NCBI GenBank assembly: GCA_902625945.1
Contig: CACODG010000007.1
Location: forward strand, 1 to 49,092
Direction: 5' to 3'
Source: an uncultured Pelagibacteraceae bacterium
GTDB lineage: Bacteria; Pseudomonadota; Alphaproteobacteria; Pelagibacterales; Pelagibacteraceae
Length of the DNA: 49,092 bases
Below are positions 15,258 through 45,234 of this stretch, piece by piece; the stretch's first letter is position 1; each line of letters starts with the position of its first letter. Both the position numbers and the translations under genes were made by a program. Under the pieces are notes generated by a model. The model made no database searches and was not told where the DNA came from. It saw only the letters and a list, made by a program, of their open reading frames with translations.

Positions 15258-15380
15258 TTAAAGAGAACTTAAATTAGTTTTTTTTCTTTTAAAACTTCCC
15301 TTTCCTTTTTTTGGTCTCACGACTCTTTTTCTATACTTGATTGTAAAAAGATCCTTTGCTACCTTATTTCTTTTTCTCAT
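15258..15380 (-). CDS. arfA: ArfA-like alternative ribosome-rescue factor (40 residues)
   Basis: A 40-codon frame begins with ATG at 15380, overlapping the stop of the upstream regulator gene as ATGA, and ends in TAA at 15258. The protein is highly basic: MRKRNKVAKDLF near the start, then RKRVVRPKKGKGSFKRKK. E. coli ArfA has LFRQRV followed by KKGKGSYMRK in the same order, and the KGKGS segment is the part known to enter the empty mRNA channel near the decoding centre. ArfA recruits a release factor to ribosomes stalled on mRNA lacking a stop codon. Unlike E. coli arfA, this gene has a normal stop and I see no internal hairpin. The similarity is short, so the call is probable rather than certain. 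Confidence 0.68.
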   Translation of the reverse strand: MRKRNKVAKDLFTIKYRKRVVRPKKGKGSFKRKKTNLSSL

Positions 15381-15982
15381 AAAAAATATCCATCTTTATT
15401 ATTTAGAATAAATTTTTCATCCATAAATTTTTCATTGATTTTTTTTCTTAATCTATAAATATGTGTTTCGACTGTATGTGTATCTGCTTCGGAGGAATAA
15501 TTCCAGACGGACGACAAAATATCGTCTTTGGATACCGGTTTTTTATTATTAAGAAATAATTCAAGAAGTTGAACTTCTTTTTCAGTAAGAATTATAAAAG
15601 TATTTAATTTTGATAATTTTTTCTCATTCTTATTTAAAAGATAGCTTTTAATTTCTATTGATGAATTATCTATAAATTTTTTTTTTGCAAACGTATTTTC
15701 TATAATACTGTTAATTTCTTTTAAAGTTGTTGGTAGTTCTAATCTTGCATCATAATTGTCTAAAAGGGTTTTCTTTTTTCCAACACAAATTTTAATTGCA
15801 TTATAGCTATCAATAAATTTTTTTTGTTTCTTATCCTCTAAAACGTCAATATGGAATAAAATAACATTAGCATTATCATTCGAATTGTCTACCAAAGGAT
15901 TAAACTTTAAAATTGCTTTCAATTCATTTAAAGTTGAAATAAATGAGGAAGGGCCTAGAATTCGAACATTTATTTTGTGCAT
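15377..15982 (-). CDS. OmpR/PhoB-type winged-helix regulator with degenerate receiver domain
   Basis: The 201-residue protein ends in a clear OmpR-type winged helix (about 125-201): LTEKEVQLLELFLNN, then SKDDILSSVWNY, then the recognition helix stretch TVETHIYRLRKKI and a DGYFL hairpin. The N-terminal 105 residues are shorter than a normal receiver and lack the acidic pair near strand 1, and no aspartate sits in a normal phosphorylation context (VILFHIDVLED is the closest). It is probably phosphorylation-independent. No histidine kinase is nearby. Its ATG overlaps the start of the divergent L,D-transpeptidase gene, an obvious candidate target, and arfA is coupled behind it by ATGA. Confidence 0.8.
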   Translation of the reverse strand: MHKINVRILGPSSFISTLNELKAILKFNPLVDNSNDNANVILFHIDVLEDKKQKKFIDSYNAIKICVGKKKTLLDNYDARLELPTTLKEINSIIENTFAKKKFIDNSSIEIKSYLLNKNEKKLSKLNTFIILTEKEVQLLELFLNNKKPVSKDDILSSVWNYSSEADTHTVETHIYRLRKKINEKFMDEKFILNNKDGYFL

Positions 15983-22532: not shown

Positions 22533-23505
22533 AAGTTTTTTAATTGAAAATAATATAAACGAGATCAAAGAAAATTTAATATTATTCTACGGGGAGAATT
22601 TAGGTTTAAAAAACGATCTTAAAAAAAAAATCAAAAATTTAAAAGATAAAAACACAATTATTTTCAATCAAGATAACATTATTTCAAATAGTGGTTTGCT
22701 ATACAATGAAATTAGCAACAATTCTTTGTTTGAAAAGAATAAAGTTTTTATTATAGAACAAGTAACGGATAAGATTCTAGCAATTATTGAAGAAATAATT
22801 CCAAAAATAAATAACGAGACAATTTATTTATTTTCAGATGTATTAGATAAGAAATCTAAATTAAGAAGTTTTTTTGAAAAATCAAACTTGTGTGGTGTTG
22901 TACCATGTTATGAAGATAATGAGATCGGTATTAAAAATATAATAAATAAAAAATTAAGTGGTTATAGCGGTCTTACGCCAAATAATATAAATTTAATTTT
23001 AGATCACGTTGGATTGAATAGGGCTAAACTAAATAATGAAATTGATAAAATACAAACCTTCTTCGATAAGAAAGAAATTATTTCGAGCAAATTAGAAATT
23101 TTACTGGATTCTAAAATCATGGAAGACTTTAACAAGCTCAAAGATGAAGCTTTATTAGGTGATAAAATTAAAACAAATAAACTCCTCAGTGAAACAATTA
23201 TTGATAATGATAAATTAATTTACTACCTAAGCCTAATTAATCAACGCTTGATAAAAATTAATGAAATAAATATCTCTGCAGGAGAAAGTTTAGAAAACAA
23301 AATAAACAGCTTAAAACCACCTATTTTTTGGAAGGATAAACCCAATTTTATAAAACAAATTAAAAAATGGACACCTAAAAAGCTGAAAAATCTTCAAATT
23401 AAATTACTCGATCTAGAAATAAAATTTAAATCCAATTCAAATATTAACAAGGACGTTCTGCTAAAAAATTTAATGGTAGAAATATGCGTCTATGCTAATT
23501 CTTAG
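22522..23505 (+). CDS. holA: DNA polymerase III delta subunit
   Basis: HolA opens the beta sliding clamp as part of the clamp loader. The 327-residue protein fits the family: an N-terminal AAA-like domain without Walker motifs (IKENLILFYGENLGLKNDLKKKI), a middle region with IYLFSDVLDKKSKLRSFFEKS, and a helical C-terminal collar domain. Length and the lptE-holA order support the call. Its start lies inside lptE (11-bp overlap) and its end overlaps the convergent parB by 11 bp. Confidence 0.88.
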   Translation: MIYKSFLIENNINEIKENLILFYGENLGLKNDLKKKIKNLKDKNTIIFNQDNIISNSGLLYNEISNNSLFEKNKVFIIEQVTDKILAIIEEIIPKINNETIYLFSDVLDKKSKLRSFFEKSNLCGVVPCYEDNEIGIKNIINKKLSGYSGLTPNNINLILDHVGLNRAKLNNEIDKIQTFFDKKEIISSKLEILLDSKIMEDFNKLKDEALLGDKIKTNKLLSETIIDNDKLIYYLSLINQRLIKINEINISAGESLENKINSLKPPIFWKDKPNFIKQIKKWTPKKLKNLQIKLLDLEIKFKSNSNINKDVLLKNLMVEICVYANS

Positions 23506-24349
23506 TTAATAATTTAGATATTAATTCGAATTGCTCTAAGTCCTTGTACTCTATAGTAACTTTTCCAGAATTATTTTTTTTATTTGTTATATTTACTTTA
23601 AGACCAAGTATTTTCTCTATCCGTTCTTGTGTCTGCAGAATGTTTGCATCAAATAGCTTTTCCTTATTACCACTTTTCTTATTTCTAACTAAATATTCAA
23701 CTTTTCTAGCACTATAATTCTTGGCTACAATTTCCTCAGCAATAGATGAGGCGTTTGAGATGCCGATTAAAGGCCTTGCTTGCCCAGAGGATAATGTACC
23801 TTCCTCTAACATTGAAATTACATCACTAGGTAAAGTCAACAACCTTAAAGTATTGCTTATGTGACTTCGACTTTTGGACATTAATTTAGATATACTTTCG
23901 TGATCGTATTTAAATTCCTCGTTTAGTCTTTTATATCCTCGTGCTTCTTCTATTGGATTAAGATCGTCTCTTTGTATATTTTCTACTATTGCCACTTCCA
24001 AGGACTCAACATCTGACAAATCCAATATAGTGACTGGAATTTCATGTAAGCCTGCCCTTTGGGCTGCAAGCCATCTTCTCTCTCCAGCCACTATTTCATA
24101 CTTTACAGAGCTTGATTTGCTATGCCTTACAGCGATCGGCTGAATAATACCATTTTTCTTTATAGAATTAGCCAGTTCTTCAAGTTTTTCCTCTCTGAAA
24201 TTTTGCCTTGGCTGATAAGGATTTCGTGATAAATCTGCAATCGCTACCATGTTGCTTTGGTTGTTTATTTTTGTTTTTTCTTCAGAAGATGAGTCTCCAA
24301 AAAGTGCGGACAATCCTCTGCCTAAACCCTTTTTTTTGCTAGTATTCAT
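23495..24349 (-). CDS. parB: Chromosome partitioning protein ParB
   Basis: ParB binds parS sites and spreads on DNA as a CTP-dependent clamp to segregate the origin region. The 284-residue protein has the N-terminal KKGLGRGLSALFGD box, then RNPYQPRQNFREEKLEELANSI and GERRWLAAQRAG (CTP-binding region, about 95-107). A helix-turn-helix follows (SISKLMSKSRSHISNTLRLL), then a C-terminal dimer domain. Its ATG overlaps the parA stop by 4 bp. Two parS-like palindromes lie about 1 kb upstream inside rsmG. Confidence 0.96.
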   Translation of the reverse strand: MNTSKKKGLGRGLSALFGDSSSEEKTKINNQSNMVAIADLSRNPYQPRQNFREEKLEELANSIKKNGIIQPIAVRHSKSSSVKYEIVAGERRWLAAQRAGLHEIPVTILDLSDVESLEVAIVENIQRDDLNPIEEARGYKRLNEEFKYDHESISKLMSKSRSHISNTLRLLTLPSDVISMLEEGTLSSGQARPLIGISNASSIAEEIVAKNYSARKVEYLVRNKKSGNKEKLFDANILQTQERIEKILGLKVNITNKKNNSGKVTIEYKDLEQFELISKLLTKN

Positions 24350-25143
24350 GCAGCTCCTTCAATTCGATTTTTTTTTAAAAATTCTTCGGCAAGCTTAAAA
24401 TAAGATTTACTTCCAATGCAATTCTTGTCATACACTACACAAGGCAAACCATGTGATGGTGCCTCTGATAAACGGACGTTTCGTTGAATCACAGTCTGAT
24501 AAACCTTTTCTTTAAAGTAATTACGCGCTTCCCTATCAACTTCAGAAGAAAGTTTATTTCGTTTATCAAACATCGTTAATAAAATACCCCTGATCTTTAG
24601 ATTACGATTTAAATTTTCCTTTATACGATCAATCGTTTTCACAAGTTGGGTTATACCCTCTAGAGCAAAAAATTCAGTTTGTAGTGGAACTAATAGTTCA
24701 TCAGAGGCAACTAATGCCATTATAGTAAGTAAACTTAATGATGGAGGGCAGTCTATAAAAATATTATCGTATTTTTTTAACAATCCATCTTTTTTTAAAT
24801 TCAGAATTTCTTTCAATACAAATGCTCTGTTAGAATCATTGGCAGTTTCAACTTCAAGACCAGAAAGATTTACATGCGATCCTATTAGATCTAAATTTTC
24901 AATATCAGTTTTCTGAATTATACTTTCAATATTTTTTTTTTTTATTAAAAGATTGTAAACATTATTATCTTCATCATTATTATTCTTACCTAGGCCAGTT
25001 GTTGCATTGCCTTGTGGATCCAAATCAATTACTAAATTATTTTGACCCATAATGGACAGTGAAGCGGCTAAGTTTATTACTGTAGTCGTTTTTCCAACTC
25101 CGCCTTTCTGATTTATGATCGATAGTGTTGTTGGTAATGACAT
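24346..25143 (-). CDS. parA: Chromosome partitioning ATPase ParA (Soj)
   Basis: ParA is the DNA-bound ATPase whose gradient moves ParB-parS complexes. The 265-residue protein shows the deviant Walker A KGGVGKTTTVINLAASL near residue 12, the A' motif DLDPQGNATTGLG near 40, and FIDCPPSLSLLT near 125. It lacks an N-terminal DNA-binding domain, so it is the chromosomal (Soj) rather than the P1-plasmid type. It sits between rsmG and parB in the conserved mnmG-rsmG-parA-parB order, with no gap to rsmG. Confidence 0.97.
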   Translation of the reverse strand: MSLPTTLSIINQKGGVGKTTTVINLAASLSIMGQNNLVIDLDPQGNATTGLGKNNNDEDNNVYNLLIKKKNIESIIQKTDIENLDLIGSHVNLSGLEVETANDSNRAFVLKEILNLKKDGLLKKYDNIFIDCPPSLSLLTIMALVASDELLVPLQTEFFALEGITQLVKTIDRIKENLNRNLKIRGILLTMFDKRNKLSSEVDREARNYFKEKVYQTVIQRNVRLSEAPSHGLPCVVYDKNCIGSKSYFKLAEEFLKKNRIEGAA

Positions 25144-25761
25144 TTACTTATTAATCTCCATTAAAATTATTTTTGAGTCTTTATTTGTCATACTGCTTTC
25201 TAGTTTATAAGGGTATTTTTTCGTTTTGGAAGATTTTTTTATATCTTTCTGTGCATTTTGACCCTTTAGAATCATTAATTTATGTGGCTTTTTAGCGATT
25301 TCACGTGAAACTTGTATTACTTGATCCAATTTTTTGAAAGCTCGACAAGTAATAATATCAGAGTCTAGAACTTCATCTCTCACATCTCCAAAAACTTGAG
25401 CATTAAGATCTAATTCTTTGATTACCTTTATTAAAAATCCTCTTTTTACTGGTGATTTTTCATATAATTTCACGTGAAAAGCCTTGTTATTATTGAATAT
25501 TTCTATTACAAGACCTGGAAATCCTGCGCCAGTACCTAAATCAGCTAACGATTTAAAGTTAAAATCAATAAACTTAACTAATTGAGCTGAATCAAGTATA
25601 TGCCTAAGCCAAATTTGATTTTCAGTACTTTTAGCAATCAAATTATAATTTTTATTCTCCTTTAAAACTAAATGTGTGAATTTTTTTAGCTTATCGATTG
25701 AATGATCGCTAAAATTAAGACTATTTTTGAGAATATTTATTACTTCCAGCTCCTGCATCAA
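25144..25761 (-). CDS. rsmG: 16S rRNA (guanine-527-N7)-methyltransferase
   Basis: RsmG methylates G527 of 16S rRNA with S-adenosylmethionine. The 205-residue protein has the SAM-binding motif [17 protein letters not shown] near residue 68, [12 protein letters not shown] near 103 and [13 protein letters not shown] further on, all typical. Its start overlaps the mnmG stop by 4 bp. Two parS-like palindromes lie inside the coding sequence, encoding QVSREIA and FHVKLY, so this gene also carries a chromosome-segregation signal. Confidence 0.95.
25297..25312. other. parS-like ParB-binding site 1 (in rsmG)
   Basis: GATTTCACGTGAAACT contains the perfect 12-bp palindrome TTTCACGTGAAA (25299-25310). 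It matches the widely conserved bacterial parS 16-mer TGTTTCACGTGAAACA at 13 of 16 positions. It lies about 0.15 kb upstream of parA, inside rsmG. Confidence 0.85.
25466..25481. other. parS-like ParB-binding site 2 (in rsmG)
   Basis: AATTTCACGTGAAAAG carries the same perfect core TTTCACGTGAAA (25468-25479), 169 bp from site 1, and matches 12 of 16 consensus positions. Two copies so close together, beside parAB and nowhere else that I saw in the window, argue strongly against chance. Confidence 0.8.
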
Positions 25762-33295: not shown

Positions 33296-33651
33296 TAGCT
33301 AACCATCTTTCCAATTTTTTCACCTGCAAAAATATGAAAATGTAAGTGAGGAACTTCCTGACCACCATCACTTCCGATATTAGTTAACGCTCGATATCCT
33401 TTATCTTGTGCGCCCACTAAATTTGCAACATGTGTAACGGCTTTGTTTAACTCTACAATCTCTTTATCTGAAGCTTTATTGTTGAAATCATTAAGATCTA
33501 CGTATTCACCTTTGGGAATAATTAAAACATGAACTTTCTTTTGAGGATTAATATCATGAAAAGCTAAAACATGATCATTTTCATAAACTTTTTTACACGG
33601 GATTTCTCCTCTTAGAATTTTAGCAAATATATTATTTTTGTCGTAACTCAT
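33295..33651 (-). CDS. HIT-family nucleotide-binding protein (HinT-like)
   Basis: The 118-residue protein opens with NIFAKILRGEIPCKKVYENDHVLAFHDINPQ, typical of HinT. It ends with the catalytic histidine triad HLHFHIFAG near 99-107, preceded by GGQEVP. HinT proteins hydrolyse purine nucleoside phosphoramidates. It overlaps hisE by 4 bp, a placement next to hisE seen in several alphaproteobacteria. The physiological substrate is not clear. Confidence 0.94.
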   Translation of the reverse strand: MSYDKNNIFAKILRGEIPCKKVYENDHVLAFHDINPQKKVHVLIIPKGEYVDLNDFNNKASDKEIVELNKAVTHVANLVGAQDKGYRALTNIGSDGGQEVPHLHFHIFAGEKIGKMVS

Positions 33652-33920
33652 CTTTGCCTTTTCTTAAGTTCACTCATCACATCTTCGATCTTTATATTAT
33701 TAGCCTCTAAGTAAACCATCAAATGATAAATCACATCAGCAGTTTCGTGTATCTTATTTGAATTTTTTTCCACAGATTCTATTAATTCGCCTATTTCCTC
33801 TTTTACTTTTGAAACACTTAAATTTTTATCGTTCAAAAGTCTATTCGTATAAGACTTTTCCGGAGAAGAATTTTTTCTCTCTCTGATTGTTTTGATTAAT
33901 TCTTCTAAGTTTTTAAGCAT
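33648..33920 (-). CDS. hisE: Phosphoribosyl-ATP pyrophosphatase
   Basis: HisE performs the second step of histidine synthesis, hydrolysing phosphoribosyl-ATP to phosphoribosyl-AMP. The 90-residue all-helical MazG-like protein contains the metal-binding acidic helix KEEIGELIES and HETADVIYHLMVYLEAN, plus the early SPEKSYTNRLL. It is a free-standing enzyme, not fused to HisI; hisI is not in this cluster. It lies 1 bp after hisF. Confidence 0.94.
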   Translation of the reverse strand: MLKNLEELIKTIRERKNSSPEKSYTNRLLNDKNLSVSKVKEEIGELIESVEKNSNKIHETADVIYHLMVYLEANNIKIEDVMSELKKRQR

Positions 33921-33921
33921 T

Positions 33922-42552: not shown

Positions 42553-43133
42553 TATTTATTTTGTTTAATATAATTGATTATATCTTTTATAGGCAAACCC
42601 ATTATAGAATTCTGGTCGCCTTTTATATAATCAAATAAGTCTAGCCCATCAGCCTCTACTTGATACACACCGTAAGCTAGTAAAGTTTTAGTCTCAATTT
42701 TGCTTAAGTAATCTGATATTTGTTTTTCTGATAAATTCTTCATTTTTAATTCGGAAGTGTCCGAATGGTTCCATATCATAGCACCATTTTTTGAAATACA
42801 AACTGAGCTTATAAGATAGTGTTTTGAGTCATTAAGTTTTTTAAGTATTAAAAGAGCTTCTTCTCTTGATTTTGGTTTGTTTATTAACTCATCGTTAAGT
42901 GAGATAACGCTGTCAGCTCCTAAAACTAATTTATTGGGATTGTTGTTACTTACTTTAACAGATTTTATTTCGGCTAAGTTTTTGGAAATTAATAAAGGAT
43001 CTGCTCCTTCAGCTATAAGTGATGCTTTCACTTCATCTTCGTCTACATTAGATACTATTACCTCAAAATCAATATTATGATCTTCCAAAATTTTCTTTCT
43101 TACACCACTTTTAGATGCTAAAATTAATTTCAT
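42552..43133 (-). CDS. maf: Maf-family nucleotide pyrophosphatase
   Basis: Maf proteins hydrolyse non-canonical or modified nucleoside triphosphates. The 193-residue protein starts LILASKSGVRKKILEDHNIDF. The family usually has S-x-R-R at this site, and here it reads SGVRK, so one arginine is displaced. LGADSVISLNDELINKPKSREEA and the end motif VEADGLDLFDYIKGDQNSIMGLP are normal. Its substrate (dTTP/UTP or m7GTP class) is not clear from sequence. It overlaps ppsR by 4 bp. Confidence 0.93.
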   Translation of the reverse strand: MKLILASKSGVRKKILEDHNIDFEVIVSNVDEDEVKASLIAEGADPLLISKNLAEIKSVKVSNNNPNKLVLGADSVISLNDELINKPKSREEALLILKKLNDSKHYLISSVCISKNGAMIWNHSDTSELKMKNLSEKQISDYLSKIETKTLLAYGVYQVEADGLDLFDYIKGDQNSIMGLPIKDIINYIKQNK

Positions 43134-43948
43134 TTATTTTTCTTTATTTCGATTATTTTTAAAATTGATGCTGCAGTTTCTTCAACAGATTTTCTTGTTA
43201 CATCGATTGTTGGCCAGTTATTTTTTTTAAAAAGATTTTTTGAATCATTTACCTCCTTTTTGATAAATTCAGGATCTGTATATTCTTTCAATTTATGGTC
43301 TTGCATAATGGCCACTCTGTTTCTTCTAATATCTGCTAACCTTTCCGGATCTGCTACTAAACCTACAATGCAGGCTTTTTTATTATGAATTAAACTTTCA
43401 GGTATTTTTTGATTTAAAACTAAAGGAATGTTAATTGTTTTATACCCTCTGTTAGCAAGGTAAATTGATGTTGGGGTTTTGCTGGTCCTGCTCACACCTA
43501 ATAGTATGACATCGGCATTATTTATATCGTCAACTTTTTTTCCATCATCATGAGACATTGTGAATTGTATTGCTTCGATTCTTTTATAATAGTCATCGTC
43601 TAAAACGTGTTGCGCACTTGGTTTATGAATCGCTTTCTGATTTAGTAATTTAGAAAAACTAAGTATTAAGTTTCCTAGAATTCCGAAACAAGGCACTTTG
43701 TTTTTCTCACTTTGACCTGAGATATATTTTGCCAGTTTAGTCTCGACTATAGTGTATAAAATTAAAGAGTTTTCCCGTGATACACATTCATCAATTATCT
43801 TATTAATTTGATGTTCTGTTCTTACAAAAGCAAATTCTTTTTTCTCATATTCAAAGTTGGAGAATTGTGACTTAAGTGATAAAAAAATTCTATCCAGGGT
43901 TTCACCGGTAGAGTCAGACACAAGATATACATTGTATTTTTCGTTCAT
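43130..43948 (-). CDS. ppsR: Pyruvate,phosphate dikinase / PEP synthase regulatory protein (DUF299)
   Basis: These proteins are ADP-dependent kinases and Pi-dependent phosphorylases that switch PPDK or PEP synthase off and on. The 272-residue protein opens YNVYLVSDSTGETLDRIFLSL and has the P-loop VILLGVSRTSKTPTSIYLANRGYKTINIPLV near residues 148-178, both diagnostic. It corresponds to the 'RP001' gene that flanks the replication origin in Caulobacter. It is transcribed away from the 272-bp gap to its right. Confidence 0.94.
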   Translation of the reverse strand: MNEKYNVYLVSDSTGETLDRIFLSLKSQFSNFEYEKKEFAFVRTEHQINKIIDECVSRENSLILYTIVETKLAKYISGQSEKNKVPCFGILGNLILSFSKLLNQKAIHKPSAQHVLDDDYYKRIEAIQFTMSHDDGKKVDDINNADVILLGVSRTSKTPTSIYLANRGYKTINIPLVLNQKIPESLIHNKKACIVGLVADPERLADIRRNRVAIMQDHKLKEYTDPEFIKKEVNDSKNLFKKNNWPTIDVTRKSVEETAASILKIIEIKKNK

Positions 43949-44016
43949 ATATTTGTTAATAAATAAATGATAAGCATCGTTTTTCCACCTAATTTAGCTT
44001 GGAAACAAAATAAATT

Positions 44017-44044
44017 AACATTAATCAACATTATTTGAACATTT
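44017..44044. repeat. Three AACATT(A/T) repeats at helical spacing within the candidate oriC
   Basis: AACATTA at 44017-44023, AACATTA at 44027-44033 and AACATTT at 44038-44044 start 10 and 11 bp apart, placing them on one face of the helix. They could be sites for a cooperative origin-binding protein; the protein is unknown. Confidence 0.5.
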
Positions 44045-44051
44045 TATTCTA

Positions 44052-44060
44052 TGTTTATAA
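44052..44060 (-). promoter_or_regulatory. DnaA-box-like site (TTATAAACA on the minus strand)
   Basis: TGTTTATAA on the plus strand; the minus-strand 9-mer TTATAAACA differs from TTATNCACA only at position 6. An identical copy lies 23 bp to the right. Confidence 0.4.
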
Positions 44061-44074
44061 TTTTGTTTTACTAG

Positions 44075-44083
44075 TGTTTATAA
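44075..44083 (-). promoter_or_regulatory. DnaA-box-like site, second copy of TTATAAACA
   Basis: Identical 9-mer and orientation to the site at 44052-44060, one mismatch from TTATNCACA. Confidence 0.4.
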
Positions 44084-44148
44084 GATTAATAAAGTCTGTA
44101 AAAAAGAGCTTTTTCGAAACTAAATTATTAACTTGTACATGTATAAAC

Positions 44149-44157
44149 TATGTATAA
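44149..44157 (-). promoter_or_regulatory. DnaA-box-like site (TTATACATA) with an ATGTATAAA direct repeat
   Basis: TATGTATAA on the plus strand is one mismatch from the DnaA consensus on the minus strand. The core ATGTATAAA occurs twice, at 44139-44147 and 44150-44158, 11 bp apart, again one helical turn. Confidence 0.4.
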
Positions 44158-44220
44158 AAAATTATATGAGTATTAAACACGTCCTACTACTTAAACTAGG
44201 TAATAAAAAAGCTATTTAGT

Positions 44221-45234
44221 ATGACTCAATTAAAAAATATTTTATTAAAAAAAATTCCTTGTAAATCAATCTGGTTTATGAGACAAGCAGGAAGATATTT
44301 ACCTGAATTTAGAAAAATCAGATCACAAAATCAAAATTTTATTAAACTTTGTTTAGATAGTGAATTAAGTTCAGAAATCACGTTACAACCAATTAAAAGA
44401 TTTGATCTAGACTCTGCAATAATATTTTCTGACATTTTAATGGTCCCCCATGCTCTAGGTCAACACGTAGAATTTACAAAAGAATTTGGCCCAAGGCTTA
44501 GCCAATTCGATAATAATACATTTTATAAAAAAAATGAGAACGAATTTTCAAATAAACTTAAGCCAGTTTACAAAGCAATTGAGATGACAAGAAAAAAATT
44601 AAATAAAGAAAAATCTTTAATTTGTTTTATAGGTGCTCCATGGACATTAATACTATACATGTTTGGTCTAAGAAAAAATAAAAGTGAAAAAGAACCTATT
44701 GATTTAAGTGAGTTAGATAATAAAAAATTTTTAATAGATGAGATTATGGATAAACTTGTAAATTTTTTATGCATTCATATTAAAAATCAAATAAATGCTG
44801 GAGCGGATGTTGTTCAAATATTTGACTCTTGGGCGGGACTATTACCATCAGATAAAGTCATAGATTATTGTTTTGAGCCCAATGCTAAAATTGTTGAGTT
44901 TTGTAAAAAATATACAGCGCCATGTATTTGTTTTCCAAAAGGTATTGGACAAAAATATGAATTATTTAATAAATTTGTTAAATCAGACGGAATTAATCTT
45001 GATTCAAATATAGATCCTTCATGGGCAAGGGATAAGTTAAAAAATGTTGTAATCCAAGGAGGGTTAGATCCAAAAGAATTGTTAAAATCTGAAAATCAAA
45101 TGTTCGAAGGAGCGACAAAATATATTAAGGCTTTTCGCGAAATGCCGTATGTTTTCAATTTAGGCCATGGTTTACTTCCAGAAACAGATCCTGATAAAGT
45201 AGATAAATTAATAAAATTTTATAGGAATTTTTAA
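44221..45234 (+). CDS. hemE: Uroporphyrinogen decarboxylase
   Basis: HemE decarboxylates uroporphyrinogen III to coproporphyrinogen III. The 337-residue protein has the signature SIWFMRQAGRYLPEFRKIR near residues 17-35 with the substrate-binding arginines, and IFSDILMVPHALG near 70 with the key aspartate. FIGAPWTLILYMFG and FNLGHGLLPETDPDKV also match. It is the first gene right of the candidate origin and shares one base with hemH (TAATG). Confidence 0.97.
   Translation: MTQLKNILLKKIPCKSIWFMRQAGRYLPEFRKIRSQNQNFIKLCLDSELSSEITLQPIKRFDLDSAIIFSDILMVPHALGQHVEFTKEFGPRLSQFDNNTFYKKNENEFSNKLKPVYKAIEMTRKKLNKEKSLICFIGAPWTLILYMFGLRKNKSEKEPIDLSELDNKKFLIDEIMDKLVNFLCIHIKNQINAGADVVQIFDSWAGLLPSDKVIDYCFEPNAKIVEFCKKYTAPCICFPKGIGQKYELFNKFVKSDGINLDSNIDPSWARDKLKNVVIQGGLDPKELLKSENQMFEGATKYIKAFREMPYVFNLGHGLLPETDPDKVDKLIKFYRNF

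Follow-up and report, generated by a model that had tools for sequence, protein, structure and literature searches.

The replication origins of Caulobacter and Rickettsia are bounded by hemE and a gene of the COG1806 type (PMC1914354). In Caulobacter crescentus and Rickettsia prowazekii these boundary genes enclose an A+T-rich interval of more than 400 b with a cluster of DnaA-box-like sites. According to the same source the elements listed for hemE-type origins need not all be present, and some of the predicted origins lack CtrA sites. Other bacteria illustrate how far the boxes themselves can vary. The oriC of Escherichia coli has oppositely oriented sites, some about one helical turn apart, and combines high-affinity R boxes with spaced weak sites (PMC6727663). 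Epsilonproteobacterial origins have a class-specific core, TTCAC, a precedent for a lineage-wide consensus unlike that of E. coli, and the DNA-binding motif of their DnaA is changed too (PMC5043019). The oriC of Mycobacterium tuberculosis is described as having no TTATCCACA box and may need cooperative filling (PMC6727663). The 9-mer TTATTAACA has been proposed as putative DnaA boxes upstream of dnaA in Mycoplasma hominis, M. mobile and M. arthritidis (PMC2751442), and TTATCAACA is a predicted box on the linear chromosome of Cyanothece 51142 (PMC4674748).

The DNA analysed here, referred to as the window, is a stretch of 49,092 b (C7:1-49092) from the genome G000, which comprises 786,306 b in 20 contigs and is 71% complete. 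Relatives carry the taxon labels of the search tool, in which g1 is the window's own genus, g7 to g10 belong to the same family (f1) and f2 is another family of the same order. The named relatives with a close ppsR are the SAR11 single-cell genomes AAA795-E07 and HIMB058, the latter used to represent SAR11 clade II (PMC9589681).

Between the divergent ppsR and hemE operons lies a gap of 272 b, at 43949-44220. A preliminary description of the window had singled it out as A+T-rich and as the largest gap, which the open reading frame lists, its length and its GC content confirm. Its GC content is 0.21, whereas 2-kb stretches of the window, the only reference used, have values of about 0.25-0.37. 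No other gap between listed open reading frames is as large; a larger interval at 33296-33921 is filled by two shorter frames, and the left contig end is occupied by an open frame. Pfam matches bear out the gene order given in that description: ppsR (43130-43948, PF03618, COG1806 type), maf, aroE, coaE and a dnaQ-type exonuclease (RNase_T) lie to the left on the minus strand, and hemE (44221-45234, PF01208), hemH, hemJ (UPF0093) and rho lie to the right on the plus strand. The gap has the location of an alphaproteobacterial hemE/COG1806-type origin. The whole of it, 43949-44220, is treated here as a putative oriC, on the grounds of its length, its conserved blocks, and the skew and synteny of relatives. 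An RNA element in the gap was considered and rejected, as Rfam gave no match at gathering score; there are neither tRNA nor Rfam matches at that score in the whole window, and no terminator-like site was found in the gap.

Extraction of ppsR-hemE gaps from own-genus loci, with the window and L001, gave 99 gaps of 263-286 b, at loci whose hemE proteins are 49-72% identical to that of the window. L001 is the window itself, its removal and that of 12 exact duplicates leaves 86 distinct gaps. L065 and L095 have no hemE, and the end of the gap at hemE is approximate in L003, L070 and L075, where hemE is inferred to start with a codon other than ATG. Eleven gaps from sister genera (ten from g10, one from g7) bring the number of gaps counted to 97; the own-genus gaps L201, L207 and L208 were read and belong to neither count. 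The 86 gaps align with sharp invariant blocks, at a mean pairwise identity of 66% (range 49-96%). At nine box-like sites the mean top frequency is 0.916 and 50 of 77 columns reach at least 95%, against 0.689 and 21 of 195 in the remaining columns, a contrast that is descriptive because the sites were picked after the conserved blocks had been seen. The preliminary description had held that a gap not conserved in related genomes would speak against an origin; position and length are both kept. The matches to hemE and ppsR lie at most 0.4 kb apart in 21 of the 23 f1 genomes searched for both, the two exceptions being g8 genomes. PF03618 is present in 83 of 86 f1 genomes and in none of the six f2 genomes searched.

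The three 9-mers cited as DnaA-box-like in the preliminary description are present, all on the minus strand: TTATAAACA at 44052-44060 (B5) and 44075-44083 (B6), and TTATACATA at 44149-44157 (B8). A fourth, TTATTAACA at 43954-43962 on the same strand (B1), holds a further copy of the motif TTATNAACA. This motif is found at the columns of B1 in 71 of the 86 gaps, at B5 in 61 and at B6, which is 23 bp from B5, in 69. On the plus strand are three weak sites in the same orientation, spaced 10 and 11 bp: AAATTAACA at 44012-44020 (B2, box-like, with last three bases A-C-A in all 86 gaps), TAATCAACA at 44022-44030 (B3, consensus TAATTAACA) and the box-like ATTTGAACA at 44033-44041 (B4). Towards hemE, TTATACATG at 44138-44146 (-) (B7) has a conserved TTATACA and is followed at 11 bp by B8, then by a conserved (G)TTATAT element at 44161-44167 (+) (B9), whose first base is A in the window. 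The weak box TATTAAACA at 44171-44179 (+) (B10) is nearest to hemE. In seven of the nine sites the tetranucleotide AACA hardly varies, and the tandem pair B7/B8 reads TTATACA. The spacings within B2-B4, B7-B8 and B5-B6 agree with a proposed cooperative array of weak boxes.

The window gap contains three copies of TTATNAACA, against a mean of 0.11 in dinucleotide shuffles, none of 2000 of which reaches three. The absence of a perfect DnaA box, as first described, extends beyond the gap: exact TTATNCACA occurs nowhere in the window, and all 44 matches carry one mismatch. We observed in addition that these 44 matches to TTATNCACA with at most one mismatch compare with a mean of 67.8, fewer than in all 100 shuffles.

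The off-consensus spelling is shared by the genus. There are 207 copies of TTATNAACA in the 86 gaps, with at least one in every gap and a mean of about 12 in 50 shuffles, and 150 copies of TTATACA in 84 of the 86. The canonical box TTATNCACA, an element of hemE/COG1806-type origins, occurs once in the 86 gaps, TTATNTACA three times and TTATNGACA not at all. At position 6 of TTATNNACA the own-genus gaps have 207 A, 1 C, 0 G and 3 T. The sole canonical box lies at B8 of locus L093, where the site reads a perfect TTATACACA.

In the 11 sister-genus gaps there are 27 copies of TTATNAACA in ten gaps and five of TTATNCACA in five. One canonical box is at offset 8 in G084, a g10 genome; of the other nine g10 loci, six read TTATAAACA at this place. 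The remaining g10 canonical boxes are at offset 105 in L204, L206, L209 and L210, which are not four independent cases because they form two pairs about 90% alike; other g10 loci read TTATTCACG, ATATTAACA or ATATTCACA at this offset, and L211 has TTATNAACA one base away. The counterpart of B10, at offset 228-230, is TTATNAACA or TTATNTACA in eight of the nine g10 loci other than G084. A tandem pair of TTATNAACA 11 bp apart is found at offsets 188/199 in G084 and 196/207 in the g7 genome G071, its counterpart in the window is the TTATACA pair at offsets 191/202. All six canonical boxes of the 97 gaps counted thus occupy conserved box positions. This suggests that the DnaA box of this lineage is TTATNAACA; the best evidence is that C and A replace each other at position 6 in orthologous sites. 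As judged by these counts, the putative TTATNAACA array is a genus-wide departure from TTATNCACA and is frequent in g10 and g7 also.

The clustering of the motif was compared along three own-genus contigs. The richest 272-b stretch for TTATNAACA is the gap itself in G061C1 and G062C1, with three copies against one in the next best, and G015C1 has one copy in the gap and two at another place. With looser motifs, G015C1 and G062C1 have other stretches that equal the gap. We also asked whether contigs of the family avoid canonical boxes. A fifth-order Markov model gave no clear sign of this apart from TTATCCACA, which is rare in the same three contigs (2 found, 7.7-11.9 expected); TTATNCACA overall is near expectation there under that model.

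The preliminary description had proposed a shifted or degenerate DnaA code. This holds for the DNA, in which TTATNAACA replaces TTATNCACA, but is not visible in the protein, since the known contact residues are canonical in 29 of 30 DnaA frames of relatives. These frames (17 from f2 and 12 from g1) keep R399, P423, R432, D433, H434, T435 and H439 of E. coli DnaA and have I in place of L438; the thirtieth, L030, does not include the region. The list of base-contact positions is taken from PMC5043019, and the residue numbering was placed via an alignment to 1J1V. The genome of the window has no match to the DnaA domain (PF00308), one of ten such among 61 genomes searched; 51 have the domain, 49 of them over the cut-off. 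We rejected the idea of an organism without DnaA on this count and because G000 is only 71% complete.

The altered base falls at position 6 of TTATNAACA, which is position 4 in the 5'-TGTGGATAA numbering and among those where DnaA makes base-specific hydrogen bonds (PMC6727663). An off-consensus base at such a position should weaken binding, and together with the canonical contact residues this led us to propose an array of weak, cooperative boxes and not a changed protein code. A DnaA whose specificity has changed to prefer TTATNAACA, through residues outside the known contacts, is rather unlikely in our judgement. The near-exclusive A at position 6 of TTATNNACA in own-genus gaps would fit it, as would the residue just before RDHTTV, which is N in the g1 frames and G in E. 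coli, f2 and the g7 genome. Yet the g7 gap carries TTATNAACA boxes although its DnaA has G, the known contact residues match those of E. coli, and canonical boxes persist at orthologous positions in g10 and in L093. Tighter binding of TTATTCACA than of TTATTAACA by DnaA would mean weak boxes and the reverse would mean a changed code.

Compared with the origins of Caulobacter and Rickettsia, the gap shares the boundary genes, the A+T-rich interval and the cluster of box-like sites, and differs in being shorter, in the absence of TTATNCACA and of TTAA-N7-TTAA, and in that no CtrA orthologue was found. We class it as a variant of the hemE-type origin because PMC1914354 allows for missing elements. 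With E. coli it has in common oppositely oriented sites, some about one helical turn apart, and a canonical DnaA domain IV in the window's relatives; it differs in gene neighbourhood, in that no high-affinity R box is seen, and in the off-consensus base at a position contacted base-specifically (PMC6727663). The Epsilonproteobacterial box is altered at position 5 and the SAR11 gap at position 6, and the known contact residues of DnaA are unchanged here, unlike the DNA-binding motif in that class (PMC5043019). Consensus boxes are missing both in this gap and in M. tuberculosis, with a different box consensus (PMC6727663). The Mycoplasma and Cyanothece boxes likewise have A at position 6 and were proposed as DnaA boxes, but number one or two each in other gene contexts (PMC2751442, PMC4674748), whereas the gap holds a conserved multi-box array in a hemE-type origin. 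The TTATNAACA-type spelling is thus already in print as a putative box, and its conserved array is a departure within hemE-type origins.

GC skew was proposed in the preliminary description as a check on the origin. The window's own genome, in 20 contigs, is too fragmented for whole-genome skew, relatives were therefore used. Raw GC skew, in the window and in G015C1, is dominated by gene orientation, and we accordingly used strand-corrected third-position (GC3) skew. G071 is a single contig of 1,160,202 b, from which 27 stretches of 20 kb, half its length, were sampled. Two grid points, 1,100 kb (the one nearest to the gap) and 1,120 kb, tie as best origin, and the fitted terminus is at 500-520 kb, about half the genome away; none of 200 block shuffles is as strong. 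With all sampled genes, the minimum of its detrended cumulative GC3 skew is ppsR, at 1,090.7 kb, and the maximum is at 528 kb. Support is weaker in G084 (single contig, 1,199,990 b, 31 stretches sampled), where, of 60 grid points, the one nearest the gap comes first, with seven of 200 shuffles as strong; the detrended curve has its minimum at 57.8 kb, which is 9 kb away from the gap, and its maximum at 895 kb. The outcome of the check is thus split: these two genomes have a minimum at or near the gap, and none is seen there in the corrected skew of the three own-genus contigs G015C1, G061C1 and G062C1. In these contigs the best changepoints are terminus-like in sign; that of G015C1 is 236 kb to the left of the gap, and those of G061C1 and G062C1 are 87 kb and 59 kb to the right. 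Gene-strand bias did not single out the gap, which ranks 9 of 60 in G084 and 6 of 59 in G071.

Gene order bears on the genus whose skew leaves the origin unplaced. When the own-genus contigs, G084 and G071 are compared, the majority of blocks either keep both arm and orientation or stand inverted on the opposite arm, at a similar distance from the gap. Inversions around an origin are expected to give such a mirror pattern. With the gap as axis, the arm and orientation rule holds for a fraction of 0.938-0.973 of reciprocal gene pairs in seven comparisons, and the axes that do better number 0 of 192, 0 of 182, 1 of 141, 0 of 157, 2 of 120, 0 of 154 and 1 of 117. The comparisons of own-genus contigs with G084 support the gap as axis; those of G061C1 and G062C1 with G071 say little, because nearly every axis scores high (medians 0.964 and 0.957). 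Axes inside one collinear block score almost alike, so that the test narrows the axis to a block (for g1 against G084 one of roughly -13 to +3 kb) and not to the 272 b. When symmetry of distance is scored, 25 of 192, 15 of 182, 18 of 141, 16 of 157, 9 of 120, 85 of 154 and 43 of 117 other axes are better; this test favours other axes in all seven comparisons, and we therefore rely on arm and orientation. The conservation of the gap, the skew minimum in two single-contig relatives and the symmetry of gene order support the origin proposed in the preliminary description, and the ppsR-hemE gap is most likely oriC.

Two other readings of the gap have to be weighed. It might be the divergent promoter region of ppsR and hemE alone, with AACA/TGTT as sites of a regulator or sigma factor and the origin elsewhere. 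Divergent genes do require promoters in the gap, and a promoter-like site at 43959-43931 (-) overlaps B1, one of four such sites where chance gives a mean of 3.4; own-genus skew, too, does not indicate the gap. Divergent promoters could account for part of its conservation. Against them as the whole explanation are the skew minima of G071 (on ppsR) and G084 (9 kb away from the gap), the axis of gene-order symmetry, the occurrence of canonical DnaA boxes at corresponding positions of other genomes, and a conserved length with some nine phased boxes over about 230 b, which exceeds the need of two promoters. We regard this reading as improbable. More improbable still is that the TTAAC repeats in B1-B4 are CtrA half-sites, as in the Caulobacter origin, and not DnaA boxes. 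B3 and B4 are indeed spaced 11 bp and TTAA-N7-TTAA is enriched in own-genus gaps, where 54 of the 86 hold 146 copies in all and shuffles give a mean of 44, but it has no match in the window gap and no excess in the 11 gaps of g10 and g7 (6, mean 5.7), and B5 and B6 read T(T/C)AACA and TAAACA, a poor fit to TTAA. A search with a Caulobacter CtrA query found matches in 18 of 19 genomes, none above 35% identity, and none in G000, so that no orthologue was found. CtrA control was rejected on the lack of an orthologue and of the site in the window gap; the enrichment of TTAA-N7-TTAA probably reflects TTAAC-containing boxes one turn apart.

Further elements of known origins were sought in the gap. 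The IHF site WATCAN5WTR has one match in the window gap, and 337 of 2000 shuffles do as well. Unwinding modules of the BUS type consist of DnaA boxes plus DnaA-trios (PMC8287927). Downstream of B10 the window has CCTACTACTT, and the trio-like CGTCCTACTACTT is at 44180-44192 (+); across the 86 gaps such runs are not clearly above single-base shuffles. By nearest-neighbour energies the weakest duplex stretch of the gap is 44138-44177, a candidate unwinding element that overlaps B7-B10, with about 1% of the window's 30-mers as weak or weaker. Averaged over the genus, the gap is just as weak at its ppsR end, and either stretch may be the place of unwinding.

We conclude that the gap is very probably a chromosomal replication origin of the hemE/ppsR type in which DnaA would act on mostly weak, cooperative boxes. 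DnaA would bind a fixed set of about nine such boxes: three TTATNAACA boxes on the minus strand (B1, B5 and B6), a helically phased trio on the plus strand (B2-B4), the tandem TTATACA pair (B7 and B8), and the B10 box adjoining hemE. Once filled cooperatively, the array would open an AT-rich segment on which the helicase would be loaded; the weak stretch around 44138-44177 is the most likely one, with the ppsR end as the alternative. We infer the binding of DnaA, its weakness, the order of filling and the site of unwinding. For the wider proposal, that the SAR11 family origin has exchanged TTATNCACA for a fixed TTATNAACA with unchanged DnaA contacts, no high-affinity anchor, cooperative filling and no CtrA control, we put the chances at about even.

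SAR11 bacteria rank among the most abundant cells of the ocean, and origin-to-terminus read depth is now used to estimate their replication. A conserved origin sequence would provide an anchor for clade II, to which the window is related and for which a robust reference could not be found according to PMC9589681. The exchange of the box with no change of contact residues would offer a clean test of how much of the DnaA-box code initiation requires. These sites would probably be overlooked by origin finders that look for exact TTATNCACA. Our literature search, to which subscription papers were mostly closed, returned no paper announcing a SAR11 oriC sequence.

Several other observations were made in the window and its relatives. 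The genes parB and parA, named from sequence alone, are at 23495-25143 (-), about 19-20 kb left of the gap. A weak parS-like palindrome with three mismatches at 25297-25312 lies inside gidB and adjoins parA-parB; 0.25 such palindromes are expected by chance. The frame at 15377-15982 (-) has a winged-helix domain of the OmpR type (PF00486), its N-terminal half has no Pfam match at E 0.001. In f2 (G025-G040), ppsR is without a match in 16 genomes by protein search and in six by Pfam model, hemE is present in all four genomes searched and DnaA in many, so the origin neighbourhood of f2 must differ. In the g8 genomes G073 and G074 the best hemE match is diverged (31-34% identical) and hundreds of kb from ppsR, which implies that the origin neighbourhood is broken or hemE replaced. 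A terminus-like GC3 change lies to the right of the gap in the two own-genus genomes of G061C1 and G062C1 (L163-L199). In the single-contig g9 genome G075, hemE (C1:358206-359170) is split into two overlapping pieces, and two in-frame stops interrupt the second; the cause would be a frameshift, a pseudogene or a sequencing error.
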